Assembly: GCF_024346675.1 (NCBI RefSeq)
Contig: NZ_AP024851.1
Location: 1,488,001-1,552,000 of the forward strand
Length of the DNA: 64,000 bases
DNA from: Photobacterium sanguinicancri
GTDB lineage: Bacteria; Pseudomonadota; Gammaproteobacteria; Enterobacterales; Vibrionaceae
Direction: 5' to 3'
Part shown: positions 26,237 through 57,062 of the stretch, piece after piece
Position numbering within the stretch: the first letter of the stretch is position 1
Layout of the letters: every line of letters starts with the position of its first letter
Made by a program: the position numbers and the translations under genes
Notes under the pieces: model-generated
Seen by the model: only the letters and a program-made list of their open reading frames with translations
The model's database searches: none
What the model was told of the DNA's origin: nothing

Positions 26237-29200
26237 CTATACATTATCGTCGACCAAGCTATGATCATCTTGCTGAGCCGAGTGGTCATCATTGTCATAC
26301 GATGAACTATCATCCATCACATCTATGCCGCCATCTCTGTTGTCACCCTGCGTCCAATCACCGCCTTGGCTATCCTCGCCCTGCATCCCTTGTGGGTTAT
26401 CTTGTGCGCTCTGACCAGACTGCATTGCATGCGCATCATCAACATCGATAACTATCTCACCAGTCGCGCCATCAACAGGCTCTCCAATATCCGTCTGGCC
26501 TTCAAAGTTGATTGTCGTTGTCCCTTCATGCTCATCGGAAAGTGTCATGGTTACAGGGCGCGATAAATCGCCGCTCACGGTATAAGAACCATCATCATTC
26601 ATAATGCCGTTTGATATGGTGGCCCCTTCTGGCAAGTTACTAATCTCAACCTGATCAACATCGGGATTATCAGCAACCTCATCAGGGATATCGACACGTA
26701 CCGTACCACCTGGTGCAGCATTGAGATCAGCGTCTTCTGACTGGCTATCTTCTGCGCCCCCTTCAGCTTGTTCGCCCTCAGCGGTCCGCGTTTGCGTATC
26801 GACATCTTTTGCTTCCGGCTCGCTAGCCAGCGCTACTTCAGGAGCAGCATCAGGATCGCGATACTCATCCACCGTCAGGGTTAAGTCGTGCTGCGTTTTG
26901 CTTTCGCCATCTGAGGTGGTGACATCAAGTTCAAGGTTTCCATCAAACTCTTCATCCGTCCAGAACATCCAGCCACCCTCACCGTCCTCGATTAAGGTGC
27001 CAGCTTCACCATGGTAATCCACTGCAGCAACATCTAGGCTGCCATCAAGACCCAATGAGGTTAAGATATCACTTGAGCTTAACTCAAGCGCACCCTGTTC
27101 ATTGAGCATAAATGACGATTCAGGTTCAGCGACATTCACATTAAAGTGGCTACGAATACTTTCTTGTCCATCAGAGGCGATAAAGGCAATTTGCGCTTCA
27201 CCGTTGAATCCCTCGGCTGGCGAGAAACTGTACTCACCCTCACCCTTTGTTTCTAATATGCCTTGCCCTGACATCAGCTGCACAGACTCAATGCTCAACG
27301 TATCGCCATTAGCATCGGATAGTTGTGCCAACAGATCACGGTCATCGAAGGTTAAGGTATTGCCGGCATCAAGGTCTGTTGTGGCGATACTGTCTACCCG
27401 TGGTGATTCATTACTTGTCCCTTTCTCTTCCTCGCCCTTACTTGGCGTCGCCTCCTTTTGATCCGCAACAGCGATAGTGCTTTGCACATCAATCGTATTG
27501 CCATCATTTATCACCTGATAGGCAAAATCAACATCCCCCGTGAAGCCTTCAGCAGGTGTAAACGACCACGTACCATCATTGTTATCCACCAGCTCGCCCT
27601 GACTGCGATCAATTAAATGAACACCCTCAACCTCATCACCTTTGCTTGTCTCTATACCATCAGCCATAGCAAGTAAGTCATCCATGGATAACACTAAGGT
27701 GTCACCCGCTGTGGCATCAAAATCAGCATACGATTCGGTCGGTTGCGAGACCTGGCTGGAGGACTCTTCACCATAATCGGCCGTTGTCGCCGACACAGTG
27801 ATAAAGAAGCTGCCCGTAAAGTCTTGAGGCGGAGTAAGTGAAAGATCGTCCATGCTCCATGTTGTGACATCAAGCACTTGGTTTTCTTCCGTGATAGTTA
27901 TGGTATTCACACCATCAGACACTTCAAACCCGACAGGGAAGCCAGTAATCACCAAGTGACTCAGTTCTTCTGATGCGTCGATCATCTCAACATTTAAGCC
28001 AAGTAAACCCGAGGAATCTTCGTCAAAAACGAGTGGCCCTTGATGATCCGTCGTGATCACCGCACCGTCAGCGACAGGACGTACATAAACAGGCATCTCT
28101 AACATGGCGGTTAAACCATCAGGGTCTTTTACTTCAACTTGTAGCTCAGCCGTGCCTGAATAATCCTCTGCGGGGGTAAAGGTCCAACTACCATCTTCAT
28201 TTTGTTCAACCTTTCCACCTTCTTCTCCTTCGGCTGTAATAATGCGAGAGATCACCAGATCATCACCGTCAATATCACCAAACAGATCCAGCATATCGTT
28301 AGCGTTAAAGGTAAAAGCGCCATCTTCATGGGTCGTTAGGTGAGCGTTACCGCTGCTAAATGGCGCATCATTAACAGGCAGTACATCCACCTTCATTGCG
28401 CCTTCGGTTTTATCATCGCCATCAGACACTGTGTAATTTAGCTCAATTAAACCATTAAAATCAGGCGGCGTAATAAGGTGGTACATCCCATCTTGCTGAA
28501 GCTGTAATTGACCATTAGGCGGCTGTTTTAATGACAGATCTTCTAACGTCAGTTTGTCACCATCAGCATCGCTGGCTTGTTTGAGGATATAAGCAGGGTC
28601 TATCACTAGCACTTGATCTTCATCGACATTGAAGCTCAAGTTAGGTGCGACAGGTTCGTCTTCAACCGGAGTAACATCAACAGACACTGTCGCTGTATCC
28701 GTCGAGCCATTACCATCAGAGACGGTATAGGTGAACGAGGCTGGACCGTTGTAATCAGGTTCTGGTGTAAAGACGACATTACCATCGTCATCAAGATGTA
28801 CCTTACCGTGAGTATCATCTGTCGCTTCAACCCCCACGATCGTTAAGGTATCACCATCTACATCAGTATCATTCAGTAAGAGATCAGCGGGATCGATCAC
28901 TAACTGGCCATCTTCTTCAACTTCAATGGCGCGTGAATGGATGCCTTCTTTGACTTCAACAAGTTGATCGGTCACATCCAGAGTTTGATCTGCGGTACTG
29001 TAATTCAGATCCAAATTCATGGCATGTGTCACTTCACTGCCATCGGGTTGGATCGTCGTCATCTGAATCTCTTCAGACATAGTACGAGACACCGTCATAT
29101 TCTGCACCACATAGGTGCCGTTACTGCCTGTTGTTCCTAGTGTAAAGTGGTGCACTGGCACATCTGTGGTAAATACGTATTCATCTTGGTATTCACCCGA

Positions 29201-32200
29201 CTCGCGATAGCCCCCTTGTGCATCTATTATATTGCCATCAGAATCATAGGCTTTAATCATCACTTCGGTTGCATGACGACTGGTTTCATCAAAATAGCCA
29301 CCAAGACCATCTAATTGGAAAGTAATTTGGTTTACGTCTTCCCCTTCGACCGTCACTGTCAGCAATTCATTGGTATCTAACCCTTGGCGGCTTTGATTAC
29401 CTATTCCAGCACCCACATGGCTACCCGCTCCATTCCATGCGGCTAATTCACCTGTATTCACTTGAGTGGTAACAGTCACACCATCTTCTTGATAAACAGC
29501 GGTATCGCCATCGACTGCCCCCCAATCTTCTACTTTGGCTTTGCCATCAAAAACTTTGGTATCGGTATTGCTATCAAAGCTACCAATACGAATATCGCGG
29601 GTATCAGCTTGGATTTCTTCGGTATTGGGCGTGAACTGCACTTGGGTATCGGCTGGATATTCAATGCCAACAACCATATCAGCCCATTCACCCTCTTCAG
29701 TTTGATACTGTACCGAGCCATGCTCAGGGGCTGCATCTAGACGGATCATAGGATCTGAACCATCTAGGCGATCATCATCTTTCGCCACCACAGGATCATT
29801 GACTGGGTTGACTGTTAGATCTAAGCCAGTCGAAACCGTGTATTCACCATCGGTTACGTCAAAGGTTAGATCTAAATCGCCATTAAAGTTCTCCGCTGGT
29901 ACGATCGTAAATGATCCATCTTCGTTCGCAGTGACCTGACCAAAGGCCTCTAGCTGTAGGTTCTCTGCCACTAAGGTTTCGCTGCTATCAATATCTGTGG
30001 TATGCATTAAAAGCTGGGCTTGGCTGAGTGTAATACTGCCATCTTCATCCACACTGTAGGCAACATTGCTGCTGACTACGGGGCTGTCGTTTATCGCCAG
30101 TACATCAACATTCGCCGTTGTTGTCGCCGTTGCCCCTTCTTCATCTTTGACGGTCACATCAATCGCAACGTCACCATCAAAATTGGCATTGGGTGCAAAC
30201 GAATAACTGCCATCGCCATGATTTGTCAGGATGCCATCTTCGCCGCTATAACTCACGTCAGCGATACTGACCCCACCTTCGACATCACTGCTGTTGGCTA
30301 GTAGTTGTTTGTCATTGAAGGTTAAAATACCGTCTTCATCAACCGAATAGGTCGTCGTTCCTGCCACAGGGATATCGTTAACCGCATCGACGGTAATATC
30401 GATATTGGCAGGCGTAGAAATGGTGCCGTCATTCACAGCAAAGCTTAAATCCACCTCACCGTTAAAGTTCTCGTTAGGGGCAAAGGTATAGCTGCCGTTG
30501 CCATGATCAGTAAAGACACCATCAGCGCCGTTATAATTCACCGACTCAACCGTTAGATCATCACCATCAACGTCTGTCGCTCCTGCTAACAAATCCTTAT
30601 CTGTAAAGGTTAACGAGCCATCTTCATTCATGGTGAAGGCTTGGTCATCTACCTTGGCAGCATCGTTCACCGCGGCAACGACCAAACTCGCATCCGATGA
30701 CACCACGCTGCCGTTGTCATCACTGACATTAAAGCTGATCGACAAATCACCATTCACATCAGTATTTGGCGTAACAACGAAAGATTTATCACCTGTTTCG
30801 CTGTCTATCACCGTTTTGAAGCTGGCATTATCAACCTGAAGGTTAGTCACCATTAGGTTATCACCATCAGCATCACTCGCATTGGCCAGTAATGCTGCTT
30901 CAGTGATGATAATTTCACTGTCTTCGAGGGTATTGAATTGCAGTGGGCTATTTTCATCAATAACAACGGGATCGTTCACCGCTGTAACATGAAAATCAAG
31001 CGTCGTCGTGGTAGTTGCCGTTTCAGGCGAATCCGTTTGCAAGGTACTGCTTTCGACAGAGATAGCAGAAATAGTTAATGCAACATCGCCATTAAAGTGT
31101 TCTGCACCTTGGAATATCAGTTGGCTTACATCCCACCCAGCCACATCGGTGCTATCACCATCTTCACTAGCCGTAAAGGTATTCACACCGTCAGTTAGCG
31201 TTGCGCCATCAGGCAAGCCGTCGATCACCAATGATTGTAAAGATTCAGAGCCGTCAGTATCGGTTAGTGAAGCATCGAGGTTAATCGGCACAGCTTGATC
31301 TTCGCTGATCACTTTTTCTATGCTGATCGCATCCAACAAGCCCCCCAAACTATTGTCGTCTGGCGAATCAAATTCTAATCGAGGGTTATCTTCTGTCGCG
31401 GTAAATTGATAACTATGGTGATGCCAACCCGCATCATCTTCAATCAAGGTATCAACAAGCTGCCCTTCAAAGTACACATCAACCTGAGAGTCTGTTCCTT
31501 CATATTGCAAGCGAGCAGACATATCGAACTCTAACGTGACAACGTCACCCTCTTTAACATCGAGTGTCGTATATAAATTCGATTCATCACCACGATTGGC
31601 TTCCAACTCAATCACACCGCCACGGTTATCCCCCACACCGTAGACATAATCTTGGTGGATTTCGATCGCATTGTTGGCGTTGTCGGTATGCCAACCTGTT
31701 AGTGCACTATCATACCCTTGCCCATACTCCACTAACGTCATATCGGTTAACGACACCGTTAACGAAGGTTCATCGGCATCTGGGGTGATGGTCACTGGTG
31801 CCGTAAACTCAGCATCAACGGTGCCATCGTTAATCACTATTGTGAGGTTGGCATCACCGCTGTAATCTGGGTTAGGCGTATAGATCCAATCACCGTCTAG
31901 ATTTTGTTCTATGTGGCCGTTTTCATCTGCGGTGATCTTAACGACAGATAACGCATCGCCATCAACATCTGTGGCATTATCGATCAAAGAGGCTTCGGTA
32001 ATTTTAATCGAACCATCTTCGTTCACCAGATAGGATGTTTCAGCCAATACTGGCGCGTCATTAACCGCGGCAAGGTTAACGTTGCCCGTTGCCGAGGTAA
32101 CAGCACCGTCGTTATCGTCAACATCAAAAGTGAAAGGTACATCACCGTTGTAATCTTCAGTTGGCGTAAAGGTAAAGGTGCCATCTTTATTATCAACTAA

Positions 32201-33310
32201 GCTACCGTATTGCTCATCAATCTGGAGATTTAGTGCAGTCAGGTTTGTACTATCGACATCCGATGCATTTTGCAGCAGCATCGCTTGCGTGAAGTGAACC
32301 GTATTATCTTCGTCACCCTCAATCACGGTCTCTGATACTGTGGCGGCATCATTGACGGCGGCAAGATCGACCTTGCCAGCAGCTGGGGTCACTGCGCCAT
32401 CGTTGTCATCCACATCGAAGGTAAATGGCACCTCACCGTTGTAATCATCGGCTGGTGTGAAAGTAAATGTGCCATCTTTATTATCAACGACGTCACCAAA
32501 CGCGGGATCAATACTCAGATTCACCGCAGTCAGCTGATCACTATCAATGTCAGTGGCATTTTCAAGCAACATTTCTTGGGTGAAGGTAATGCTAGTGTCT
32601 TCTGTACCTTCAATGAGGGTATCAGTCACCACCGCCGCATCATTCACATTCTCAACTTGAATTTCGAAGGTTTGCGAGACGGTTTCAGTATCGAAATCGT
32701 CTTCAACAGCGAGCTCTTTGGTTTGGGCATTGGCAACATCAACTTGGAAGGTTTCACTGGTGGTTGCCGTATCAAAATCTTCGGCCTTCGATTCTGCAGT
32801 GGCAGGACTTACGCCACCTCCTGCCCCCGACTGTTGATCTGCACCTTGTTGCGAGGCTTGATTTTGTTCTGCTGATGATTCATCACTCCTCGCACGTTCA
32901 CCACGCGAACTACCACCTCCAACAGCCTGCGCTCCCACTCCACCGCCACCACCAATCTCTTCACCTTCTCGGCCATTATCTAACGCTGGCGTTTCACCTT
33001 GATTGTCACCACTGCGCGGCCCGCTTGGGTCTTCATCTTTTGACTGGCTCTCTTGTGCGCGACGCTGCCCACTTCGACCACTCTGTTTAGCGGCACCAGC
33101 ACCATCATCGGAAACCATGTTTGCTTGGGTGTTTTGATCGGCCGACTCAGCCCCCGTTGCCGTTGTAGACGCCATGGTACTTTGCTGATTTTGCCTGTCC
33201 TGAGCACGGTGTTCATCGGTGCTTTCATCTGGCGTCGCATTGTGTTCAACCGCATCATTGAGTGTGTTGTCTTTCGCGTCATGCTTGTCTTGATGCTTGT
33301 TCTTTGCCAT
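26237..33310 (-). CDS. Giant cadherin-like tandem-repeat protein, probable type I secretion substrate
   Basis: 2357 residues from the ATG at 33310 (GGAGG six bases upstream; a GTG three bases earlier is possible). There is no signal peptide. Residues 1 to about 185 are hydrophilic and low-complexity (Gln, Ser, Gly, Asp). Then come about fourteen cadherin-like/tandem-95 modules with NEDGS..FT..DLL and DGSYTFAPNENFNG signatures, each roughly 90-100 residues and acidic enough to bind calcium. Two non-repeat beta-domains interrupt them, around residues 520-665 (jelly-roll-like, YGQGYDSALTGW to GGLLDAISIEKV) and 1180-1410. The last 65 residues are Asp/Gln-rich. No GGxGxDxxx RTX nonapeptides are seen. 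Divergent type I secretion genes suggest it is exported to the surface or matrix as an adhesin; that link is inferred. Confidence 0.88.
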   Translation of the reverse strand: MAKNKHQDKHDAKDNTLNDAVEHNATPDESTDEHRAQDRQNQQSTMASTTATGAESADQNTQANMVSDDGAGAAKQSGRSGQRRAQESQSKDEDPSGPRSGDNQGETPALDNGREGEEIGGGGGVGAQAVGGGSSRGERARSDESSAEQNQASQQGADQQSGAGGGVSPATAESKAEDFDTATTSETFQVDVANAQTKELAVEDDFDTETVSQTFEIQVENVNDAAVVTDTLIEGTEDTSITFTQEMLLENATDIDSDQLTAVNLSIDPAFGDVVDNKDGTFTFTPADDYNGEVPFTFDVDDNDGAVTPAAGKVDLAAVNDAATVSETVIEGDEDNTVHFTQAMLLQNASDVDSTNLTALNLQIDEQYGSLVDNKDGTFTFTPTEDYNGDVPFTFDVDDNDGAVTSATGNVNLAAVNDAPVLAETSYLVNEDGSIKITEASLIDNATDVDGDALSVVKITADENGHIEQNLDGDWIYTPNPDYSGDANLTIVINDGTVDAEFTAPVTITPDADEPSLTVSLTDMTLVEYGQGYDSALTGWHTDNANNAIEIHQDYVYGVGDNRGGVIELEANRGDESNLYTTLDVKEGDVVTLEFDMSARLQYEGTDSQVDVYFEGQLVDTLIEDDAGWHHHSYQFTATEDNPRLEFDSPDDNSLGGLLDAISIEKVISEDQAVPINLDASLTDTDGSESLQSLVIDGLPDGATLTDGVNTFTASEDGDSTDVAGWDVSQLIFQGAEHFNGDVALTISAISVESSTLQTDSPETATTTTTLDFHVTAVNDPVVIDENSPLQFNTLEDSEIIITEAALLANASDADGDNLMVTNLQVDNASFKTVIDSETGDKSFVVTPNTDVNGDLSISFNVSDDNGSVVSSDASLVVAAVNDAAKVDDQAFTMNEDGSLTFTDKDLLAGATDVDGDDLTVESVNYNGADGVFTDHGNGSYTFAPNENFNGEVDLSFAVNDGTISTPANIDITVDAVNDIPVAGTTTYSVDEDGILTFNDKQLLANSSDVEGGVSIADVSYSGEDGILTNHGDGSYSFAPNANFDGDVAIDVTVKDEEGATATTTANVDVLAINDSPVVSSNVAYSVDEDGSITLSQAQLLMHTTDIDSSETLVAENLQLEAFGQVTANEDGSFTIVPAENFNGDLDLTFDVTDGEYTVSTGLDLTVNPVNDPVVAKDDDRLDGSDPMIRLDAAPEHGSVQYQTEEGEWADMVVGIEYPADTQVQFTPNTEEIQADTRDIRIGSFDSNTDTKVFDGKAKVEDWGAVDGDTAVYQEDGVTVTTQVNTGELAAWNGAGSHVGAGIGNQSRQGLDTNELLTVTVEGEDVNQITFQLDGLGGYFDETSRHATEVMIKAYDSDGNIIDAQGGYRESGEYQDEYVFTTDVPVHHFTLGTTGSNGTYVVQNMTVSRTMSEEIQMTTIQPDGSEVTHAMNLDLNYSTADQTLDVTDQLVEVKEGIHSRAIEVEEDGQLVIDPADLLLNDTDVDGDTLTIVGVEATDDTHGKVHLDDDGNVVFTPEPDYNGPASFTYTVSDGNGSTDTATVSVDVTPVEDEPVAPNLSFNVDEDQVLVIDPAYILKQASDADGDKLTLEDLSLKQPPNGQLQLQQDGMYHLITPPDFNGLIELNYTVSDGDDKTEGAMKVDVLPVNDAPFSSGNAHLTTHEDGAFTFNANDMLDLFGDIDGDDLVISRIITAEGEEGGKVEQNEDGSWTFTPAEDYSGTAELQVEVKDPDGLTAMLEMPVYVRPVADGAVITTDHQGPLVFDEDSSGLLGLNVEMIDASEELSHLVITGFPVGFEVSDGVNTITITEENQVLDVTTWSMDDLSLTPPQDFTGSFFITVSATTADYGEESSSQVSQPTESYADFDATAGDTLVLSMDDLLAMADGIETSKGDEVEGVHLIDRSQGELVDNNDGTWSFTPAEGFTGDVDFAYQVINDGNTIDVQSTIAVADQKEATPSKGEEEKGTSNESPRVDSIATTDLDAGNTLTFDDRDLLAQLSDANGDTLSIESVQLMSGQGILETKGEGEYSFSPAEGFNGEAQIAFIASDGQESIRSHFNVNVAEPESSFMLNEQGALELSSSDILTSLGLDGSLDVAAVDYHGEAGTLIEDGEGGWMFWTDEEFDGNLELDVTTSDGESKTQHDLTLTVDEYRDPDAAPEVALASEPEAKDVDTQTRTAEGEQAEGGAEDSQSEDADLNAAPGGTVRVDIPDEVADNPDVDQVEISNLPEGATISNGIMNDDGSYTVSGDLSRPVTMTLSDEHEGTTTINFEGQTDIGEPVDGATGEIVIDVDDAHAMQSGQSAQDNPQGMQGEDSQGGDWTQGDNRDGGIDVMDDSSSYDNDDHSAQQDDHSLVDDNV

Positions 33311-33619
33311 CACTGGCCTCCGTGCTCATGTCAGTGTTCGCATACAAAGTAAATTTCCCTTTATAAAATTAAGAACACCCTTATTGCTTTAGCAAATATC
33401 TAAACACCAAAAGCCAAATAAATAACAAAAGCTAGAAGTTACGCACACTTACCGTCAAAAAAACGACACTCACAGAGATGAGATATTGATCAACAAATGA
33501 TAATGCAACCACAGAACTTGCCTTGAAATATAGCCAAAGCTAGACCATACATTATGAGTAGAGGAAACCCTGTTATCTCTCAATAGCTTGAGTAAAAGAA
33601 AAGGAAAAGGAACAACGCA
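33311..33619. promoter_or_regulatory. Divergent promoter region between the giant protein and secretion operon
   Basis: About 309 AT-rich bases separating the two transcription starts of the locus. No gene is supported here. It must hold both promoters and would be the place for shared control; I see no clear operator palindrome. Confidence 0.55.
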
Positions 33620-33952
33620 ATGATTAATTTTGAAGCTTTTAGCGACGCAATGGATGGCGATGACGACATGATGTCGATGATCATTGAGCTGTACAACGAA
33701 GAACACGGTAATGACATTCAAGTGATTAAGGATAAATACGCCAGCAGCGATATTGACGGTCTGTTTCATACCGTGCACTCACTAAAAGGTGTGTTACTGA
33801 CATTATGTGAAGAAAACGCAAGTGAACAATTTGAAACCATTGAACGCCTGTGCAAGCGCGGAGAAAAACCCAGTGCAGAGCTAATCAATGCTGTCCTAAA
33901 TGAAATGGTCAAAGTAAACCAGCAAATAGCCACCCACGCCCTGACGAATTAA
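33620..33952 (+). CDS. Hpt-domain phosphotransfer protein
   Basis: 110 residues, essentially one four-helix Hpt domain. The phospho-accepting histidine is His53 in FHTVHSLKGVLLTL, matching the HSLKG consensus. Such proteins relay phosphate between receiver domains. It has AAGGAAC before the ATG and is the first gene of the secretion operon. A likely partner is the intact receiver at the C-terminus of the pseudo-kinase encoded two genes downstream, and possibly the hybrid kinases near 50-55 kb, neither of which has a working Hpt of its own. Partnerships are inferred. Confidence 0.88.
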   Translation: MINFEAFSDAMDGDDDMMSMIIELYNEEHGNDIQVIKDKYASSDIDGLFHTVHSLKGVLLTLCEENASEQFETIERLCKRGEKPSAELINAVLNEMVKVNQQIATHALTN

Positions 33953-34008
33953 CGGTATTGGCTCTTAACTGCCCCAATACCACTCAGCGTAATTAAGGAG
34001 CTATTGCG

Positions 34009-35346
34009 ATGGGCATCGAGAACCACATAAAGAAAGCATTGATTGAATCGAAGCAAAACGACGGTGTTGAAACTGATCATTCAATTTATATTCAAAGCGC
34101 AATGACGACAGTGCATAAATCATTGCTCTTCTTGTTCATTGCTCTGTTATTGCTGATCGCTTTAGCTTCACGTGCGCAGATTGACATTGTGGTTTCATCG
34201 CGTGGTGAGATGCTACTCGATTCTGATATCGAACGTGTTCAACATTTAGAAGGCGGTATTTTAGATACCCTACTCGTCCAAGCAGGCGATTACGTATACG
34301 CAGGGCAACCTATCGCGCGCTTAAAATCCGTTGATCGTGCAACACAATTTCAATCGGCAACCATTGATATCATCGGATTAGAAATGGAAATCGCCCGCTA
34401 CCAAGGGCTGATAAATCAAACCAAACCGGATTATTCTCGCTTTTCCGTTTACCCACAACTCGTTACTCAACAAACAGAATCGTGGCAAAAAGAGTTCCAA
34501 AAAAACACCTCAAATCAAGAACTCATCGCGCTGGATATCAAGCACAAGCAACGCTTAATTGGCTCCATGAAAAAGCGTATTAACAGCTCACGTAAACAAC
34601 TGGGTTTAATTCGCAAACAGCTATCCATCAAAGAAACGCTATATAAAGAAGAAATGGCCTCGTATGTCGATGTATTGAACATGCAAGTACAAGAAACCAA
34701 CATGATCCGTGAGATAGAAAACCTCAGTGAAGCGGTAATGAGCGAGCAATTTCAGTCAACAAGATTAGAAAAACAACTGAACGATACTATCGCAAACCGT
34801 AATGCGGGCTACCAAACGCAAATTAATCAGCTTGAAAAAGATCGCTCGCTCAAACAAGCGCAACTGCCCCAGCATGCCGATAAAGTGGATCGTCTAACGG
34901 TTTATTCGCCCGTCGATGGCGTCGTCGATAAAGTGCATTTCAATTTTAAATCCGCGGTGATCCCGCCTAATGAAAGTATTGCCGACATTGCCCCTATCCG
35001 AAACAGCTTACATGGTGAAGCCAAAATACCGAAAAAAGACATGGGTTTTGTCGAAATAGGTCAAGAGGTGAAGCTAAAGTTTGATACTTATAATTTTGCG
35101 AAGTATGGCTTTGTTACCGGCACAATCGACTCCATTAGCCGATCTTCGTACAAAGAAGAAGAAAACGAATTCTATATTGCCAAAATTTCGATTCAGCAAA
35201 ACTTCCTTGAAAAATCAGGCGCTACATACACCTTGTCACCGTATATGGAATTTACAGCCGATATCAAAACAGGCTCACGCTACGTCATTGATTATGCGCT
35301 AAAACCTGTAATGAGCGCGATGGAAGACGCATTTGATGAGAGGTAA
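34009..35346 (+). CDS. HlyD-family membrane fusion protein of a type I secretion system
   Basis: 445 residues. One membrane helix near residues 35-54 follows a short cytoplasmic N-terminus. The periplasmic part has a lipoyl half-motif (VQHLEGGILDTLLVQAGDYV), a long coiled-coil hairpin (residues about 110-280), the second half-motif (LTVYSPVDGVVDKVHF) and a beta-barrel C-terminus. This is the adaptor that joins the inner-membrane ABC transporter to the outer-membrane channel. AAGGAG precedes the ATG. It lies between the Hpt gene and the pseudo-kinase gene. Confidence 0.93.
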   Translation: MGIENHIKKALIESKQNDGVETDHSIYIQSAMTTVHKSLLFLFIALLLLIALASRAQIDIVVSSRGEMLLDSDIERVQHLEGGILDTLLVQAGDYVYAGQPIARLKSVDRATQFQSATIDIIGLEMEIARYQGLINQTKPDYSRFSVYPQLVTQQTESWQKEFQKNTSNQELIALDIKHKQRLIGSMKKRINSSRKQLGLIRKQLSIKETLYKEEMASYVDVLNMQVQETNMIREIENLSEAVMSEQFQSTRLEKQLNDTIANRNAGYQTQINQLEKDRSLKQAQLPQHADKVDRLTVYSPVDGVVDKVHFNFKSAVIPPNESIADIAPIRNSLHGEAKIPKKDMGFVEIGQEVKLKFDTYNFAKYGFVTGTIDSISRSSYKEEENEFYIAKISIQQNFLEKSGATYTLSPYMEFTADIKTGSRYVIDYALKPVMSAMEDAFDER

Positions 35347-35352
35347 TACCAA

Positions 35353-37626
35353 GTGAAAATAGCAAAAAAAAACATCACGCGTTTTTCTATCGCTTTATTG
35401 GTTGGCTTTGTCATATCGCAAGCCTTTATTGGCTGGCGCTGGATCAATAATAGTGACGCACAACATAGCGCAATAACACAATCCCCACTACTGATTGAAT
35501 CAGCAAGCTTAATCAACAAAACTGAGTTATTACTGCACGCATCTTTAGCATGTAAAGAACAAGCATGCTCTCCAACACAAGCACCAATGGCAGATTTAAT
35601 CTCGGCATTACAGCAGCAGATTACAACCTTTACCCACTTAGCCGCTGCTGAAAAGTCAAAGATCAGCCTTGTCGGTAATGTTGTGTATCCGCAATTAGCG
35701 GTCACCCTAGATCGCTTTACAGCCGTTGGCGACACCACACAGTTACAACGAGCGTTGCTAACAAGCTACACCACCCTACAACTGGCACACCAAAACTTAA
35801 TCACTATTGTAGAATCTGGCTATCTCTCCCAACAGCAGCAGTTATTTCATCAAGCACTGTTCATCTTTGCGCTATCCATTATCACGGCGCTAGGTTTGCT
35901 CTTTCTTATACGCCAACAGCGTCCTCAACATTCAGGGCATCACACAACGCAATCTCAGTACGATATTAGCCAACTTGCGACTCAGCTGGAAAATATCGAT
36001 GCCCAAGGCATTCAAGCAAAACTCAATAACCTAGATACCACGCCGACAGAACGGCGTATTTTTGCCAACTTGGCCTCTATGTACCAAGACGTTGAATTTC
36101 AAAAGCGTAATGCCGATTTATACCGCCAACTTTATGCCTTAATCGGTTATGAAATTCGCGGTATGACCAATACCATTCAAGGTGGTGTGCGTTTAATCGC
36201 CCAAGATGCAGGTGAAAATGGCGCAGTAATGGCACGCGATATTACCCTCGCCACCAATACACTGTCGGATTTAGCCGATAACTATAACCGCCTTATTTCA
36301 GGTGGTAATCAAGCACAAACGGGCAACGTAAATTTCTTGCCATTTATGTCTGAATTAATTGTCCACCTCACGGCTAAAACGCAACACTCTCAACGTACCT
36401 TTGAGTGCCGTTTGCACGATAATTTACCCGAAGTCATCGAGGGCAATGCCACCAGCTTGTTCTGGGTACTTTTCCTTCAGCTTTCTAATGCTATTTCAGC
36501 GCAAAGCGATAAATACCTCCTATTGAACATTCGCACCGAGGCCGCAGAAGAAGTCGAACAAACGCGCTTGGTATTTGAAATTATCTTTTTGCCGACCAAT
36601 GCTGTTGGTCTAACTGAAATTCAGGAAGCACAGTGGGAAGCCGTTGATGAAAAAAGTGGCATTAACGATGAGTGGTCAAAAGCTATTCTAACAAAGGTTA
36701 ATCACTTTAAGTCCTCGTGGTTTCAAGCGCCATCGCCAGTACTATCATCAACCGCCGATAGCGATAGCTCTCCTCTGTCGCCTTTTCAAAAGCTGCATAT
36801 CGGTATCGATATCACGCCAAAAAGTTTCTATCGTGTAGATCGCTTACTTGAAAATAAACGTGTCATGGTTTGTACCGACTCACCGCTACAAATCGATATT
36901 ATGTCGCGTATGCTCGATCAATATGGGGCAAGCGTGACTGTCGTACGGGCCGCTAATGATATTTTTAAATCATTACCCACTATTGGTGAATACGATGCCA
37001 TCATCATTACCGATACACTCAAGGGCATTCAACTTAAGTCTTTCTGTAAAACCCTGCATTCTCGCCTGAAAAAAGCCGCGAAAACCAAACTCTTCTTAGC
37101 GGCTTCCGAATCCAGTACGGTTCAAGACACCCACGAATATGTTGATCGCGTGTTCTACACACCACTGATCCCATACGAGCTTATCCCTAATTTAACCGAA
37201 GCCATGCAAGCCGCTGAAGAAGCGGATGTGCAAACTCGAAACGCCTTCCTGATTGTTGAAGATGACCGTGTTCAGCAGTTCTTATTGAAGAAACTATTAA
37301 GCAAGCAAGGGTATGACGCTCATACCGTCAGTGATGGAGCTCAAGCTGTTGAGTACATGAAAGAGCAAGGTGCAGACATTGTCTTTATGGATTGCATCAT
37401 GCCAGGCATGGGCGGTATTGAAGCCACCAAACTGATACGCCAACGGGAAGATGAAATGGACATTCAGCAACCCGCCACCATCATTGGCGCAACAGCACTT
37501 ACCAGTGCGAGTGAACACAAGTCATGTATTGAAGCAGGGATGGACTATGTCATCAGTAAGCCGTACAAAAATGATGAAATCATCAAAGTTATTAAAAAAT
37601 ACATGGCCATTAAGAAAATCTGTTAG
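35353..37626 (+). CDS. Membrane histidine pseudo-kinase with pseudo-receiver and C-terminal receiver
   Basis: 757 residues from a GTG with GAGAGGT upstream. Two membrane helices (about 10-30 and 170-190) flank a periplasmic sensor region. The dimerisation helix reads ALIGYEIRGMTNTIQGG, where the phospho-histidine position is Tyr266, so it cannot autophosphorylate there. In the following ATPase-like region the N-box is only partly kept (LQLSNAIS) and no DxGxG or GxGxG box is seen. A degenerate receiver (about 500-615) is followed by a canonical one (about 635-755) with Asp680 in FMDCIMPGMGG, GATAL and SKPYK. There is no DNA-binding output. It probably passes phosphorylation state to the secretion machine next door; this is inference. 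Confidence 0.88.
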   Translation: MKIAKKNITRFSIALLVGFVISQAFIGWRWINNSDAQHSAITQSPLLIESASLINKTELLLHASLACKEQACSPTQAPMADLISALQQQITTFTHLAAAEKSKISLVGNVVYPQLAVTLDRFTAVGDTTQLQRALLTSYTTLQLAHQNLITIVESGYLSQQQQLFHQALFIFALSIITALGLLFLIRQQRPQHSGHHTTQSQYDISQLATQLENIDAQGIQAKLNNLDTTPTERRIFANLASMYQDVEFQKRNADLYRQLYALIGYEIRGMTNTIQGGVRLIAQDAGENGAVMARDITLATNTLSDLADNYNRLISGGNQAQTGNVNFLPFMSELIVHLTAKTQHSQRTFECRLHDNLPEVIEGNATSLFWVLFLQLSNAISAQSDKYLLLNIRTEAAEEVEQTRLVFEIIFLPTNAVGLTEIQEAQWEAVDEKSGINDEWSKAILTKVNHFKSSWFQAPSPVLSSTADSDSSPLSPFQKLHIGIDITPKSFYRVDRLLENKRVMVCTDSPLQIDIMSRMLDQYGASVTVVRAANDIFKSLPTIGEYDAIIITDTLKGIQLKSFCKTLHSRLKKAAKTKLFLAASESSTVQDTHEYVDRVFYTPLIPYELIPNLTEAMQAAEEADVQTRNAFLIVEDDRVQQFLLKKLLSKQGYDAHTVSDGAQAVEYMKEQGADIVFMDCIMPGMGGIEATKLIRQREDEMDIQQPATIIGATALTSASEHKSCIEAGMDYVISKPYKNDEIIKVIKKYMAIKKIC

Positions 37627-39019
37627 CGTCTCAACAGCCGTTTCCTGCGCCATTGTTAGCCTCTCATTACTCGGAGGAGGACTATCTTCGTACGTACAAG
37701 CCGCCAATTTGCTTGAAGTCGTAGATACAGCATTAAAACAGAACCTGTCACTAAGCAGTGCTGAAACACGCCTTAAATCATCTGAATATGACCTCGACAT
37801 TAACCGAGGGAAGTTTTTACCGTCGCTCGGCTTGTCTGCCAATACACGATGGAACGATAGTGCGACCCACCAAGAAACAGGCAGCGATGCCAATAACCGC
37901 TACAATAGTCACGGCGTCAATGTGACGCTATCGCAAACCATTTTTGACCTTGGTGATCTTTATTCGCAAGCCAGTACTCAGGTGAGTGTGGATACCGAAA
38001 CACTACGTACAGAACAAACCCGTCAATCCATTATTCGTGATGCCTCAACCACCTACTTTGAGTATCTGAAGAACAATGCGCAAATCCGCGCCACCCAAGC
38101 TGAATTTGATTCTTCAGCTGCTCGGCTCACGTTTATTACCCGTAATGTCGAGCTAGGCAATGTAGCAGGAACCGAAAAATATGAAGTCATGGCGCAAAAA
38201 GAAAAAAATGCAAATACCCTGCGCAGCTTAAAAAAAGAACAGCGTGTCATCTTAACTAAGCTTGAAAATATTGTTCAACAACCGCTAAACCCTGACCATG
38301 ATTTACAGTCGACGATTCAATTCAATGAAATATCGCTCACTCGCCAACGGCAGCTTAACGAGATCATGTACACCTCGGGCTACAACTTACTGATTGCTCA
38401 ACAAGAGGTAAAAAGAAATCGCCAGTCATTAAAGGAAACAGGGGCAACCTTTGCACCATCATTAAAAGGCAGCGTGGGTTATACCTACGACAACACCAAC
38501 GATGCGTCAGCCAATGTGTTTCCCAATAACGGCACCACTGAAGAAGCGGTTTACACCCTAACCTTGGACGTGCCCATTTTTAATGGTGGCAAAGACTATT
38601 ACCGTTATGAACAAAACAAGGTCAATATCGAACGCGCTGAAATTGACCTACGAGACAGTAAGCAACAAAGCCAACAATCATTTGATACCTTTATTTACGA
38701 CATTAATGATTACTCAGCTTCGCTACGCAGCCTCACAACCATCATTCAAGCCAATTACGCCTCATATAAAGGTATTCAGAAAGCACATAAACTCGGGACT
38801 CGCACCATAACTGACTTGCTATCTGCCGAGAGTAAGCTTTTCAGTAGCATTAGAGATTACGAAAACGCTCGTTACGATTACATCATCAGCTTAGTGCAAC
38901 TTAACGAATTAATTGGCAATTTAAACATGAACACCATAGGCAAGATTGCAGCACAAATGTCTCCTGCGAGTGACAGCAAAACCGATTCGCCAATTCCTCT
39001 TCACCTCTTGGCTCAATAA
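37571..39019 (+). CDS. TolC-family outer-membrane efflux protein
   Basis: About 482 residues from the ATG at 37571, which places a good Sec signal peptide (basic start, hydrophobic VSLSLLGGGL-type core, cut after VQA) at the front; the frame is open further upstream inside the kinase gene. The gene overlaps the kinase gene by 56 bases. The mature protein has the two TolC repeats: long helices rich in Gln/Glu, SLGLSANTRWND-like strands, VTLSQTIFDLGD and LTLDVPIFNGG. It should form the outer-membrane exit channel of the type I secretion system. Confidence 0.9.
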   Translation: MMKSSKLLKNTWPLRKSVSVSTAVSCAIVSLSLLGGGLSSYVQAANLLEVVDTALKQNLSLSSAETRLKSSEYDLDINRGKFLPSLGLSANTRWNDSATHQETGSDANNRYNSHGVNVTLSQTIFDLGDLYSQASTQVSVDTETLRTEQTRQSIIRDASTTYFEYLKNNAQIRATQAEFDSSAARLTFITRNVELGNVAGTEKYEVMAQKEKNANTLRSLKKEQRVILTKLENIVQQPLNPDHDLQSTIQFNEISLTRQRQLNEIMYTSGYNLLIAQQEVKRNRQSLKETGATFAPSLKGSVGYTYDNTNDASANVFPNNGTTEEAVYTLTLDVPIFNGGKDYYRYEQNKVNIERAEIDLRDSKQQSQQSFDTFIYDINDYSASLRSLTTIIQANYASYKGIQKAHKLGTRTITDLLSAESKLFSSIRDYENARYDYIISLVQLNELIGNLNMNTIGKIAAQMSPASDSKTDSPIPLHLLAQ

Positions 39020-39030
39020 AGGAATAACGC

Positions 39031-40740
39031 ATGAAAAATCCTTTATTTACACGAAAAATCAGCCCGCTAGATAAGCTGTATTTGGTTTTCTCTACCATAA
39101 TGACAACCCTGCTTGGGCTGGTGTTGCCGTTCTCTATTCTGATCATTTTTGACCGTATTTTACCGAATCAATCCACCCATTCGCTTATGCTGTTGTTTGG
39201 GATTATTCTCACGGCTATTTTCCTGGACTACCAATTAAAACGCCAAGAAGAACATTTGGTATCAGTGATAATGAAACGCTTTGAAAGCCAGTTAACCAAC
39301 CGCGTTTTCATGGCAATTTGTTCCGCCAATATCGAGCGTTTTAATCGCTTGGAAATGGGGGAATATTTAGAGCGGATCGCTACGATCCCAGACATTAAAC
39401 AATTCTTTGGTGGTGAGTCGATTAAAGCAATGATCAACGGTGGTACCAGTGCCATAACTATCTTGATCATCTTCCTCATCAATATGTGGGCAGGCATTGC
39501 CTTAATATTGGCATCGACCATTTTATTGATTGCTGCACGTTATTTAGCGAAAAGAAGGGTCGAGATCTTATCTCAGCGTTCAGATATAGAAGGACTGACC
39601 AATTCAAAAATCATCGAAATTGTCTCTAATCCGCTCGATATCAAAAGCCGCACTATGGAGTATCGTGTCGAAAGTGTGATGGTCGAAATGATTAGCGAAC
39701 GCGAAACCCAAAGTATTGCGTATGAACGCCTCGAATCGTCTTTTAATCTGACTCTTAACCTTATTCAGCAGCTCTCCGTGGCTATCGTGGTTGTATTATG
39801 CGCCCGTGCAGTTATCAACCTAGAAATTAGCCAAGGGGTAATGGCGGCAGTTATCTTGCTGACCAACCGTTATTTTGCCCCTTACCAACAAGTCATGCGT
39901 ACCCTAAGCCGATGGCGTGTTAACCAACTCAATATTGCGCGTATTGCGGAATTGTTAGCGTTAGAATCTGCGCGCGCGCTCCCTCAAAGCCAAAGCCACC
40001 TTTCACCACAAGCGCCAATTTCATCACAAGCGTCTTGCTCAGCACAAAACCAGAACCGTGAGCAAACACTCACACCCTCAAACACTGATATGCTTTTTGC
40101 GGGTAAACAGCCGATTGCAGCTATCACAGTTAATAACACAGCGTATGTACCCAATCAGCTAACACTGGCAACTGGACACATTCATTTGCTAACAGGGCCC
40201 AGCGGCAGTGGTAAGAGTCACTTGCTGCGCTGTTTAACCCGTGACACACACGACGATTGTTTTCAGATTGAGGTTAACCAGCAAGCATTTGAAAATATTG
40301 AGTACACCACATGGCGTAATCACATTATTAAAGTCGATAAGAATACCTCACTGGTGGAAGGATCCATCATCGACAACCTGACGTGTTTTCAATCTCACCT
40401 CAATAACGCGGCTTTTGCATTGTGTGAAAACCTCGCCATTAAAGACAAAATTAATGGCCTCAAAAATGGCTTTTATACTCAAATATCTAGCCAATCACAG
40501 TTGCCTTTTTCGCGGCAGGTTTTATTCGCGCTACTGATCGTGCGAGCACTACTAAGTAATAAGTCAGTCTTAATGATCGATGATATCGACATGGTGTATG
40601 ACGAAAAATTTGGCCGATTGTTACTGGCCTGTATCGCCCCCAAATCAAACAACTTTATTTGTATGATTGTCAGCAACAAGCTCGGTCAACTCGACACTCG
40701 TTTGGTTAAACATAAATTTGATAAGAAGGTCGCCGCATGA
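39031..40740 (+). CDS. Type I secretion ABC half-transporter with degenerate ATPase
   Basis: 569 residues. A six-helix membrane domain (about 15-290) is followed by a low-complexity Ser/Gln linker (about 310-350) and an ATPase domain. Walker A is intact (LLTGPSGSGKSHLL, near 390-400). The Q-loop is lost (IIKVDKNTSLVEG), the signature is LPFSRQ instead of LSGGQ, Walker B reads LMIDDID with Asp in place of the catalytic Glu, and the switch histidine is missing (IVSNKLGQ). It resembles the non-hydrolysing half of a heterodimeric exporter. It overlaps the next ABC gene by four bases (ATGA), which supports a fixed 1:1 pair. Confidence 0.88.
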   Translation: MKNPLFTRKISPLDKLYLVFSTIMTTLLGLVLPFSILIIFDRILPNQSTHSLMLLFGIILTAIFLDYQLKRQEEHLVSVIMKRFESQLTNRVFMAICSANIERFNRLEMGEYLERIATIPDIKQFFGGESIKAMINGGTSAITILIIFLINMWAGIALILASTILLIAARYLAKRRVEILSQRSDIEGLTNSKIIEIVSNPLDIKSRTMEYRVESVMVEMISERETQSIAYERLESSFNLTLNLIQQLSVAIVVVLCARAVINLEISQGVMAAVILLTNRYFAPYQQVMRTLSRWRVNQLNIARIAELLALESARALPQSQSHLSPQAPISSQASCSAQNQNREQTLTPSNTDMLFAGKQPIAAITVNNTAYVPNQLTLATGHIHLLTGPSGSGKSHLLRCLTRDTHDDCFQIEVNQQAFENIEYTTWRNHIIKVDKNTSLVEGSIIDNLTCFQSHLNNAAFALCENLAIKDKINGLKNGFYTQISSQSQLPFSRQVLFALLIVRALLSNKSVLMIDDIDMVYDEKFGRLLLACIAPKSNNFICMIVSNKLGQLDTRLVKHKFDKKVAA

Positions 40741-42878
40741 GTGTATTGATTGATTTTAGCAATACCGAAGAACGGCTGAGCGATTTTGGTTCTGCCAAAT
40801 TTAAAGAGCGCTATAACAACTCACCCACCATTTTAGGGATCGCCTACACCTTAATAACGCTACAGTGGGAAGGTACACCAGATATTCTGACCGATGCCTT
40901 TGTGCCCCAAGCCAAAGACATAGACAGTTTTTCGAGTACTTTAACGCGGCTGGATTACGAGTGTAAAACACGCCAGCTTGCATCCATGACAGAATTAAGC
41001 CGTATTTCCGTGCCCGCTTTCGTCGAGTTCAATAACGTCTGTACCATTTTCCTTGGCATCGAAAATGGGATGGCTAAGCTGTTCGATTATCGTAACAACG
41101 TCTTAATTGAGCATACTCTTACAGACGATACCTGCGCCGTGTGCGAAATTTCCGAATATTCAAAGATTTTCCGCGAACCGCCACCAGAGTCACAAGATAA
41201 ATCTAATTGGATCAAGTACGCTTTCTATCGCTATAACAATGAAATGAAAAGCTTGATGCTCCTTAGCTTGATCATCAATATTCTTGGTGCAATGCAGCCT
41301 TTTTTCATCATGGGCGTATACAGTTTCGCGCTTACATCGGGCTCTGAAACCACGTTATTTTGGCTTGCTGCTCTTGCGATTTTCTTAGCCGCTTCCGAGT
41401 ATGGTTTTAAACGACTTCGGATGAATATATTAGCAACATCAGGTAAAGATCTGGCGACTCACATCTCAAAAAATGTCATCAGCAAGTTGCTTTGGCTGCC
41501 CTACTCTATGACCTCTTCGGCGGGAGTCTCTTCCCAGCTGGCTCGATTAAAAGATATCGACCAACTCCGTAAGCTAGTCACCGCGGAATCAACCCTTAGC
41601 TACTTTGATTTGCCTTTTGTGATTATCTTCATTTTAGCTATCACGATTATCTCAGGAACCGCGGCGCTAACAGTACTCGCGGGTATCGTGCTCATGCTGC
41701 TATTTTGTGTGTACTCACGCTATATCTACAACCAAGCCACATCAAAAAGCTCGCGCGCTAATGCGATGGTGTCTTACCAATGGAATGAGCTACTGCGTAG
41801 TATCAGTACCATTCAAGGCTTACCGTTATTGCGTGTGATCCGCTCTCGCTTTCATGCGGCACACAATCAGAGCCTTGAAGATGCCAAGGGTGTATCGATC
41901 ACCAATGGTAGAATTCAATCTATGGGGCAAGGACTCATTCAAGCCATAGGCACCGCCAGTATTGTGACCGCGGTACTCGGTGTGATGGCAGGTAAAACCG
42001 ACGCCGGTGCGATGCTGGCAATCATTATTTTGGTGTGGAAAGCCCTTGGGCCAATTATGGGGATATACAATGCCATTACTAAATTCAAAACGATTAAAGC
42101 TGCCAGCGCCCAAATCAATGCGTTAATGTCATTAAATGATGATCGTACTCAGCTTGAAAATAGCCCACCGATTCGTCAATTTAAAGGCAATATTACGGTT
42201 AGCGGCCTGACGCATCGCTATCAAGGTTCACCTACAGGGCTCACCAACCTTGCTTTATCCATTCCTGCTGGCGACAAAATATCGATATCTGGCATGTCTG
42301 GTTCGGGGAAAACAACCTTACTGAGTATCTTGGCTGGGCTTGAAGAACGTTATCAAGGGAATGTGTTAATTGATGGATATAACATCAAGCAATTCAATAA
42401 CTTTCGCTATCGTAAAGCGATTAACTATATTCCTTTTGAACTGCACATCTTTGAAGGTACGCTGGAATCGAACTTCATTATTCATGATGGGGTGATAGCG
42501 CGGCATCAGATGGAAGAAATTATCGATTTCTTCGATTTACACTCTTGGTTACCACAAGGGCTTGAGACCAACATGACCTCAGAATATGTTGAGCAACTAC
42601 CCAATGGTGTGCAGCAGTTATTGCGGATGGCACTGGGGCTGGGTTGTTGTGATCAAGGGGTGATCATCATCGATGAGCCGTTTGTCGGTTGCGAAAAAGA
42701 GTATGTAAAATACATTAATAAACTGTTTACGGAAAAGTTAGCGCAGGCGACCGTCATATTCACGACCAACGACAAGTCTTACATCGCAGCGTCGAGTAAC
42801 TGCTTGCTACTCGATAATGATGGTTCACAAAAATACTTTGGTTTCCCAGACAAGGTAATCCAAACCATTAAGAGCTAA
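40737..42878 (+). CDS. Type I secretion ABC transporter with N-terminal C39-like domain
   Basis: 713 residues, LapB/HlyB-like layout. Residues 1 to about 155 resemble a C39-peptidase-like domain without an evident catalytic Cys/His pair, usual in transporters for large adhesins, where it binds the substrate. A six-helix membrane domain (about 175-440) follows. The ATPase has Walker A (SGMSGSGKTTLLS, near 518-530) and a full Walker B (GVIIIDEP). The signature is LPNGVQQ, the Q-loop position reads NYIPFEL and the switch histidine is Asn (FTTNDKS). It is the better preserved half of the predicted heterodimer. Confidence 0.9.
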   Translation: MSVLIDFSNTEERLSDFGSAKFKERYNNSPTILGIAYTLITLQWEGTPDILTDAFVPQAKDIDSFSSTLTRLDYECKTRQLASMTELSRISVPAFVEFNNVCTIFLGIENGMAKLFDYRNNVLIEHTLTDDTCAVCEISEYSKIFREPPPESQDKSNWIKYAFYRYNNEMKSLMLLSLIINILGAMQPFFIMGVYSFALTSGSETTLFWLAALAIFLAASEYGFKRLRMNILATSGKDLATHISKNVISKLLWLPYSMTSSAGVSSQLARLKDIDQLRKLVTAESTLSYFDLPFVIIFILAITIISGTAALTVLAGIVLMLLFCVYSRYIYNQATSKSSRANAMVSYQWNELLRSISTIQGLPLLRVIRSRFHAAHNQSLEDAKGVSITNGRIQSMGQGLIQAIGTASIVTAVLGVMAGKTDAGAMLAIIILVWKALGPIMGIYNAITKFKTIKAASAQINALMSLNDDRTQLENSPPIRQFKGNITVSGLTHRYQGSPTGLTNLALSIPAGDKISISGMSGSGKTTLLSILAGLEERYQGNVLIDGYNIKQFNNFRYRKAINYIPFELHIFEGTLESNFIIHDGVIARHQMEEIIDFFDLHSWLPQGLETNMTSEYVEQLPNGVQQLLRMALGLGCCDQGVIIIDEPFVGCEKEYVKYINKLFTEKLAQATVIFTTNDKSYIAASSNCLLLDNDGSQKYFGFPDKVIQTIKS

Positions 42879-55536: not shown

Positions 55537-56019
55537 ATGAATAACGGACTCAACCTAAAACCTATTGTGATGAAGCTCGTAATTGCTAGTTTTTCCATTG
55601 GGTTATCCCTTTCTGCATTTGCCAATAATAAGGCTAGCGAAGATGTCGAGTTTGCTGTTTTTTCAATGAACAAAGACATTCCTCAGCTCAGTAAAAGCAA
55701 GGCAAGAATGCTATATAAAGGCAGAACAAAAAAACTAAACGGCAGCATCAAAATCGTTCTGGTTGATCTACCAGAGAACTCAATACATAGAGAAGAGTTT
55801 TACGACATGCTTTTAGGCAAGTCGGTATCACAAATGAATGGGTACTGGGCATCACTGTCTTTCTCTGGCAAAGGGAAACCACCAGCAGAACTCAATAGCG
55901 ATGATATTAAGGACATTCTTGAGTGGCTCAATAAAAACCCGAATGGGATTGCCTATGCGCCAATTACGGCTGTCCCTGAGAATGCCAACATTCTCATCAC
56001 TGTCTTACAAGGAGAGTAA
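55537..56019 (+). CDS. Periplasmic phosphate-binding-like (PstS-type) small protein
   Basis: 160 residues with a Sec signal peptide ending SAFA; an internal ATG at 55570 would give a more compact leader. The mature domain of about 130 residues matches half of a PBP-like fold: SKSKARMLYKGRTKKLNGSIKIVLVDLP and FYDMLLGKSVSQMNGYWASLSFSGKGKPP are features of short PstS-like proteins encoded near sensor kinases. It is two bases from the porin gene and divergent from a hybrid kinase. It may bind a small anion and signal; ligand unknown. Confidence 0.82.
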   Translation: MNNGLNLKPIVMKLVIASFSIGLSLSAFANNKASEDVEFAVFSMNKDIPQLSKSKARMLYKGRTKKLNGSIKIVLVDLPENSIHREEFYDMLLGKSVSQMNGYWASLSFSGKGKPPAELNSDDIKDILEWLNKNPNGIAYAPITAVPENANILITVLQGE

Positions 56020-56021
56020 GC

Positions 56022-57062
56022 ATGAACATAAAATATACCCTTCTTGTCGCAGCAGCCATGCCCTTACCTTTACTTGCTGCTATAGATATTACCGATGACT
56101 TTTCAATTAGTGGCTTCGGTTCAACCTCAATCGCCAAGTCAAATAACACAACGCCTTTGTTTATTCACCGTGAAATTACGGACGATACTTGTTACGACTG
56201 CGACACCATTTTTGGTATCCAAGCAGATTACACAATAACGGAAGCACTCAATGCATCTTTACAAGTTGTAAAGCGCCCACAAGATAAATGGTCAGACCCT
56301 GAAATTGAGTGGGCCTATTTAAGCTATGAGATAAATGACCTCACCTTCAACGGTGGTCGGTTACGCTTGCCGCTATTTTTAGCCTCTGAGTATTACTATG
56401 TCGGCCAAGCCTATACGTGGGCACGTCCACCGCAAGAGGTGTATGACAGTATTCTTGGATTTACCTTCTACGATGGTTTCTCTTTACGCTGGGAAACATC
56501 AATCTCCGATGAACTAACCGCGTCGGTAATGCCATTTTATGGCTTTGGTCGTGAAAATAAGACCAAACTAGGCACGTTCGAGCTTATATTTGAAACGGAT
56601 TATATGGCAGGGCTATCAGCTGAGCTCACAGGCTTTAATTACCGTATTCACTCGGCATATATGCACACCAAGTTTGAACAAAACGGTGCAGCTTCTGAGA
56701 AGATGAATATCTTTACTTTGGGTGGGGAATATTCTCTCGATCAGTGGCTATTCATGGCTGAGGTCGAACACGATAAATTACAAACTAACTGGTATGTGTC
56801 TGCAGGTTATTCTTATGACGCCTTTACGCCTTATATAACATACGGCCAAAGCCATGACCGTCGATACTCTAAAAGTGTAACGGCTGGGGTGCGTTACGAT
56901 GTCACACCACAAATATCACTGAATGCGGAATGGCAAGGTGTCTACTTACCTCAAGATCGCTACGACCAAGGCAAAGATGGGCAATTTGTGATTCCACCAA
57001 TAGCCTTACAAGAAGATAAAGATGTACAAGCCTATACGCTAATGCTGAATTTTGTTTTCTAA
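56022..57062 (+). CDS. Outer-membrane porin-like beta-barrel protein
   Basis: 346 residues with a signal peptide ending LLAA, about sixteen amphipathic strands and a terminal phenylalanine (LMLNFVF). Features such as FSISGFGSTSIAKS at the start, LNASLQVVKRP and WAYLSYEINDLTFNGGRLRLP resemble porins found with PstS-like proteins in Vibrionaceae. An unusual CYDCD dipair near residue 52 might form a disulphide. It is co-transcribed with the periplasmic protein and closed by a strong terminator. Confidence 0.85.
   Translation: MNIKYTLLVAAAMPLPLLAAIDITDDFSISGFGSTSIAKSNNTTPLFIHREITDDTCYDCDTIFGIQADYTITEALNASLQVVKRPQDKWSDPEIEWAYLSYEINDLTFNGGRLRLPLFLASEYYYVGQAYTWARPPQEVYDSILGFTFYDGFSLRWETSISDELTASVMPFYGFGRENKTKLGTFELIFETDYMAGLSAELTGFNYRIHSAYMHTKFEQNGAASEKMNIFTLGGEYSLDQWLFMAEVEHDKLQTNWYVSAGYSYDAFTPYITYGQSHDRRYSKSVTAGVRYDVTPQISLNAEWQGVYLPQDRYDQGKDGQFVIPPIALQEDKDVQAYTLMLNFVF

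Follow-up and report, generated by a model that had tools for sequence, protein, structure and literature searches.

A conserved type I secretion block with a predicted membrane pseudo-kinase and an intact receiver in Photobacterium sanguinicancri

Introduction

Whether a type I exporter can carry a phosphate-sensing receptor as one of its own parts is the question raised by a seven-gene block of Photobacterium sanguinicancri. The block lies in a stretch of 64,000 nucleotides, here called the window (C2:1488001-1552000 of the 5.55-Mb genome of two contigs). Besides the ATP-binding cassette (ABC), HlyD-type and TolC-type proteins of an exporter and a divergently encoded giant repeat protein, it encodes a free-standing Hpt protein and a pseudo-kinase, a membrane protein that combines a degenerate kinase with a receiver domain. 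Genome comparisons indicate that signalling parts are a constant feature of the block. In LapA-type systems cyclic di-GMP (c-di-GMP) acts together with a protease to control the surface retention of a giant adhesin. If the reading given below is true, a conserved phospho-receptor in an export operon would represent a different post-translational control of a type I system.

An apparently dead kinase half and an intact receiver

In a Pfam search with an E-value threshold of 0.1 the protein encoded at 35353-37626 matches Response_reg alone, without HisKA or HATPase_c, and neither family was found for 20 pseudo-kinase members at E 1 among the 25 of 44 families listed. The kinase-box (H-box) residue of the window protein is Tyr266, within the motif LIGYEIRG. 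Among 61 distinct sequences, including that of the window, this position is occupied by tyrosine in 60, by phenylalanine in one and by histidine in none; one of 20 aligned database homologues (P0042) has asparagine. The phospho-accepting residue of the receiver, Asp680, is kept in 60/60 sequences that cover it (that of L046 does not reach it), Asp637 and Asp638 are kept in 61/61, and the receiver lysine in all 59 sequences with letters at this position. The protein therefore has the acidic pocket, phospho-aspartate, Thr/Ser and lysine of a phospho-receiver, and lacks two attributes of a hybrid histidine kinase, the phospho-accepting histidine of the DHp domain and a HATPase_c match. Two cysteines of the N-terminal helical region, Cys67 and Cys72, are each kept in 59/61 sequences and are missing from the divergent protein of genome G073. 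A further cysteine, Cys681, directly follows the phospho-aspartate in 60/60 sequences.

A structure model of the full-length pseudo-kinase has a mean predicted local distance difference test (pLDDT) score of 76.8 and a predicted template modelling (pTM) score of 0.49. Its best match among solved folds is full-length ShkA (DHp-CA-REC1-REC2; E 3.9e-18), with a TM score of 0.28 by query length and a root mean square deviation of 12.5, values which imply that the placement of the domains differs. The fold search further matched RetS and GacS. When solved structures were compared with a profile of the kinase-like part, the top matches were 7n0e, a chain of a histidine kinase, and the kinase region of RetS (6dk7/6dk8), at E-values of 0.0013-0.0015 over 87 positions. 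Taken together, the residue counts, the model and the profile matches indicate that the pseudo-kinase, which is predicted to be membrane-anchored, has the fold of a hybrid kinase, has lost the enzyme and has kept the phospho-acceptor.

Conservation of the block

Searches yielded 87 relatives, with recall limited by the patterns FMDCIM and VISKPYK, and 80 loci were kept. Of these, 48, found via the pseudo-kinase, are family members; the other 32 (L053-L084), in which none of the seven genes scored above 25 bits, were dropped as ordinary receivers. The hlyD gene lies immediately upstream of the pseudo-kinase gene in all 48 named loci, with a gap of -23 to +36 bp in 47 and of 198 bp in one. Downstream, TolC is present in 47/48 loci and ABC1 and ABC2 in 46/48, and the giant is encoded nearby in 46/48 (44 on the opposite and two on the same strand). 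Missing genes are confined to L050 (a 4.1-kb contig), L022 (whose contig ends in ABC1) and L043 (without a giant). Several loci contain broken frames (e.g. L018, L032, L037, L042, L046 and L047), which were counted by the piece adjoining the pseudo-kinase. The block was found in Photobacterium, Vibrio, Aliivibrio, Shewanella, Psychromonas and Thaumasiovibrio, and in addition in one Oleiphilaceae and one 'Micavibrio' metagenome bin. In a further locus of P. sanguinicancri (L005) the pseudo-kinase is 99% identical to the window copy. An in-frame fusion of pseudo-kinase and TolC on a 4.7-kb metagenome contig (P0017) was set aside as a likely stop loss or assembly error.

The preliminary description of the locus had proposed that its signalling genes belong with secretion, a claim to be abandoned if homologues were usually found elsewhere. 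Of 329 Vibrionaceae genomes, the pseudo-kinase search matched 114 at E 0.001, 37 of these only weakly, and 77 below 1e-40; the homologues do not lie away from secretion genes, since 76 of the 77 strong-match genomes have ABC1 adjoining. In these 76 genomes the two genes are always on the same strand, 2.9-4.0 kb apart, even in G004, where the pseudo-kinase contains stops. The sole exception, G034, has a pseudo-kinase broken by stops and no ABC1, and an intact pseudo-kinase outside the block was not found in the 329 genomes. An independent search with ABC1 matched 77 of them at E 1e-40, all of which carry an adjoining pseudo-kinase: the 76 strong matches and the divergent G073. A class-level set of 369 genomes, made up of the window's own and 368 others, gave no other pseudo-kinase at E 1e-25 and six other ABC1 matches (230-252 bits) of generic appearance.

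In G073, of the same genus, ABC1 too is divergent, and the block shows a second architecture (L138:6808-19900), in which ABC1, ABC2, HlyD, pseudo-kinase and giant are encoded in one direction, with no TolC between them. This block keeps the HlyD/pseudo-kinase pair; the H-box residue is again tyrosine, and the receiver is intact. Beside it, on the other strand, lies a gene for an EAL domain, named by inspection (L138:6808-8313).

The exporter and its likely cargo

The seven genes placed here by the preliminary description were borne out as open reading frames by the frame list and the translations, as were their family matches and overlaps, and Asp680 and His53 were found where it had put them (Table 1). 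Two starts had to be revised. For the giant the most likely start is the ATG at 33310, the listed GTG lying one codon further upstream, and the listed TolC frame (from 37451) begins 32-41 residues ahead of the Met codons at 37547, 37571 and 37574, which are followed by a signal-peptide-like stretch; each of these starts still overlaps the end of the pseudo-kinase gene at 37626. An ABC exporter, an HlyD adaptor and a TolC channel are thus encoded together, and by their family matches the genes supply the components of a type I exporter with two ABC half-transporters. A single operon is likely. From HlyD to ABC2 the genes are closely spaced (6 bp from the HlyD stop to the pseudo-kinase GTG, 11 bp from TolC to ABC1) or overlap (pseudo-kinase with TolC, and ABC1 with ABC2 by 4 bp).

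Table 1. Features of the block and of the downstream kinase cassette (positions in the window)
Feature	Position	Strand	Remarks
Giant tandem-95/cadherin-like repeat protein	26237..33310	-	2357 residues, likely export cargo; family-specific N- and C-terminus
Free-standing Hpt	33620..33952	+	110 residues, His53 present
HlyD-type periplasmic adaptor	34009..35346	+	445 residues; type_I_hlyD score above its cut-off
Membrane pseudo-kinase (predicted)	35353..37626	+	757 residues, GTG start; degenerate DHp, ATPase-like domain, pseudo-receiver, receiver
TolC-type outer-membrane channel	37574..39019	+	OEP/TolC match; start inferred, listed frame from 37451
ABC1 half-transporter	39031..40740	+	569 residues, ABC_membrane + ABC_tran; LssB-like without extra N-terminal domain
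ABC2 half-transporter	40737..42878	+	713 residues, ABC_membrane + ABC_tran; LssB-like with extra N-terminal domain
Candidate phosphodonor, intact hybrid histidine kinase	52754..55423	-	HisKA, HATPase_c, receiver
Small PstS-like periplasmic protein of kinase cassette	55537..56019	+	named by inspection
Porin-like outer-membrane protein of kinase cassette	56022..57062	+	named by inspection

ABC1 and ABC2 match TIGR03375 and TIGR01842, below the cut-offs of these models, and the placement of their motifs is backed by alignment to 5l22. In ABC1 (45 sequences, one partly masked) the Walker A lysine is present in 44/44 and aspartate replaces the catalytic glutamate in 44/44; LSGGQ and the Q-loop glutamine occur in 0/44, and the H-loop position holds asparagine in 44 sequences, arginine in one and histidine in 0/45. 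In ABC2 (44 sequences) the Walker A lysine and the Walker B glutamate are kept in 44/44, the signature glutamine is found in 0/44 and the H-loop histidine in 0/43; the window protein has LPNGV at the LSGGQ site and asparagine for the H-loop histidine. Neither half-transporter therefore has the standard catalytic set of HlyB/LssB-type exporters (LSGGQ, Walker B glutamate and H-loop histidine). As a control, ten ABC matches in the genome were considered, eight of which (ABC2 of the block and seven of the nine others) were read by a simple pattern. By this pattern ABC2 of the block is without the motifs. All three (LSGGQ, Glu and His) occur in L148, L149, L151 and L152; L150 has no signature match, L155 combines LSGGQ with DDP and lacks a His match, and L153 has neither a signature nor a His match. 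In the G073 block ABC1 has, by eye, a histidine at the H-loop place, so that not every member of the wider group has lost it. These substitutions suggest weak or regulated hydrolysis by the ABC pair, and their conservation raises the question of what powers export.

The gene linkage and conserved termini of the giant make it the likely cargo of the exporter. The window protein contains 13 Cadherin_5 and 13 tandem-95 stretches, and its relatives range from approximately 1,800 to more than 6,600 residues, the longest being limited by its 19.9-kb stretch. An N-terminal patch (LNDAVE...ATGA) is common to the giants, weaker in Shewanella, and 17 of 18 aligned rows, where the row labelled as the window is the L005 protein, share a module of about 160 residues at the C-terminus (DWT..DN...GVD.MDDS.SY); the giant of L133 ends early, without the module. 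The window giant contains no RTX GGxGxD nonapeptides, no cysteine and no TAAG or AAAG di-alanine cleavage site, with one PAAG. Its PHROG match was discounted as marginal.

The Hpt slot and the kinase cassette

The window Hpt has both the fold (Pfam Hpt, E 7.6e-8) and the phospho-accepting histidine of its family. In a Vibrio clade the slot protein keeps a predicted Hpt fold in which lysine or tyrosine replaces the histidine, or the protein is missing, and the receiver residues of the pseudo-kinase stay intact there. The route of any relay is therefore not fixed. The preliminary description had envisaged a built-in phosphorelay; the signalling parts are indeed fixed in the block, but a built-in transfer from Hpt to receiver is not essential to it. 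The tree was computed in quick mode and places the long rows L050, L041, L049, L039, L043 and L013 uncertainly. For the true Hpts the ratio of nonsynonymous to synonymous substitution rates (dN/dS) is based on 4/10 and 2/6 usable pairs, the rest being saturated. The Hpt that lacks its histidine yet is constrained offers a natural experiment on Hpt roles without phosphate. In 13 Vibrio loci, 11 of them with a lysine-form Hpt, a protein of 116-124 residues is encoded directly after ABC2 (e.g. L021:17410-17781); no Pfam family matches the copy in L021. This protein is a possible replacement partner.

A candidate phosphodonor is the intact hybrid kinase of a cassette downstream of the block. Its sensor part has relatives no more than 1.8 kb beyond ABC2 in 13/48 loci, with a further weak match elsewhere in L008; in 11 of these 13 the slot Hpt is missing or has no histidine, an argument against a simple relay. 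In at least 34 of the 76 pseudo-kinase genomes the small protein of the cassette is encoded downstream, at a distance of at most 22 kb.

Proposed role of the pseudo-kinase

The presence of a dead kinase with an intact receiver in an export block suggests switching of export by phosphorylation. On the evidence of the sequences, the chances are roughly even that the pseudo-kinase switches export of the divergently encoded giant upon phosphorylation of Asp680. It would dock on the exporter via HlyD, with its N-terminal helical region beside the adaptor hairpin; HlyD is the most likely partner because hlyD and the pseudo-kinase form the constant gene pair. Phosphorylation of the receiver would alter the helical bundle across the membrane, and this change could control either the engagement of adaptor and TolC or the use of ATP by the unusual ABC pair. 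The phosphate would be provided by a separate hybrid kinase, such as that at 52754-55423, via Hpt where the histidine is kept and by another route elsewhere. A more specific proposal, to which we attach considerably less weight, is that of a distinct, phosphorylation-licensed class of type I systems. Here the dead kinase with its live receiver would be a built-in, HlyD-docked subunit, ATP hydrolysis by the ABC pair, both members of which lack signature motif and His switch, would stay poor until they are engaged by the phosphorylated subunit, and Hpt would have been the first phosphate shuttle, which in Vibrio became a phosphate-free partner.

Several observations weigh against the switching of export by Asp680. 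The Vibrio clade, which makes up 26 of the 47 tree rows whose state was assigned, has either no Hpt in the slot or one without the histidine; in L013 the Hpt sits elsewhere. The cassette small protein is common (204/329 genomes) and often far from the block, which makes its proximity only suggestive. The full-length model is of limited confidence overall (the pTM score given above) and weakest in the DHp helices. Moreover, a protein that regulates expression of the operon would equally be expected to be encoded within it.

This last point leads to the main rival, in which the pseudo-kinase is a RetS-type modulator that pairs with or drains an intact hybrid kinase, sets transcription of the locus and resides in the operon for feedback rather than as an exporter subunit. 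RetS reportedly acts on GacS. The RetS region is among the best, albeit weak, profile matches of the dead kinase part, both RetS and GacS are among the fold matches, and an intact hybrid kinase lies nearby in many genomes. However, the pseudo-kinase differs from these proteins in its secretion-operon place and its lack of an H-box histidine; a modulator of a separate kinase has no need of such a place, and the 329 genomes yielded no intact copy of this one away from the block, with hlyD remaining its neighbour even where the gene order is altered. In addition, no gene for a DNA-binding protein is shared by most of the downstream flanks; a sigma-factor-like gene is present in four loci. We consider a RetS-like role possible, at clearly lower probability than the switching of export.

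Alternatively, no phosphorylation may be used at all, the pseudo-kinase and Hpt being structural or assembly proteins with two-component folds. If the receiver were purely structural, loss of its catalytic residues would be expected in some sequences, whereas these are kept in every covered sequence, including the clade without a His-bearing Hpt in the slot, and this explanation is therefore unlikely. Less probable still is a second-messenger input, in which the pseudo-receiver would bind c-di-GMP and the protein would join c-di-GMP and phosphate signals. The domain order is that of ShkA, whose central pseudo-receiver binds c-di-GMP according to PMC7010744, and the EAL-domain gene lies close to the G073 block. 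By eye, however, the window linker between pseudo-receiver and receiver has no DDR motif, DDR occurring only in the acidic pocket (residues 637-639), and pseudo-receivers bind varied ligands (PMC12632262). That two-component genes merely happen to neighbour an ordinary type I system is very improbable: the cassette small protein is indeed widespread and often away from the block, but the block recurs across genera, with 76/76 adjacency and a conserved order and close spacing that span five families.

Relation to known systems

A switch of export by phosphorylation would resemble the logic of LapD, with phosphate in place of c-di-GMP. Like the block, the LapD/LapG exporters (LapBCE; FrhA/CraA of V. 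cholerae) combine a type I exporter and a giant cargo with a membrane protein that has catalytically dead signalling domains, and PMC6890996 describes the dead enzyme domains of LapD as a receptor tied to the exporter. Unlike these systems, the seven block proteins contain two-component domains and no GGDEF or EAL domain, there are two ABC proteins, the window cargo has no RTX repeats and the locus has no LapG match; the sole PF06035 match of the genome lies approximately 161 kb from the block, and LapD was not searched for. This LapG-like gene stands beside a LapB-like ABC gene with canonical motifs (C2:1352976-1357491; L115, L148) and provides a natural control in the same genome.

The pseudo-kinase shares with ShkA of Caulobacter the order DHp - ATPase - pseudo-receiver - receiver; ShkA, however, is an active kinase (PMC7010744), whereas the pseudo-kinase lacks the phospho-accepting histidine and is predicted to be membrane-anchored. 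The ABC proteins match LssB/HlyB/PrtD-type exporters, but below the cut-offs and, in both cases, without LSGGQ and the H-loop histidine. Two ABC proteins and one HlyD adaptor are also found in the MARTX exporters (RtxB/RtxE/RtxD); we know of no pseudo-kinase in MARTX operons. No description of the block was found in the literature by title and start of abstract, a search that mostly excluded subscription papers. The parts thus belong to known families, and their combination is a new variation on the type I system.

Neighbouring genes

Between a LysE-like gene and the kinase cassette, the window contains approximately 8 kb (44303-52588) with RND efflux genes, a cytochrome-like gene and a PAS hybrid kinase, which are not at that place in L005. 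A relative of the sensor of this second kinase (49622-52588) was not found in the 48 loci. The sigma-factor-like gene, named by inspection, follows the block in four Vibrio loci (L015:17849-18757, L017:18013-18921, L018:12294-13184 and L039:18681-19604).

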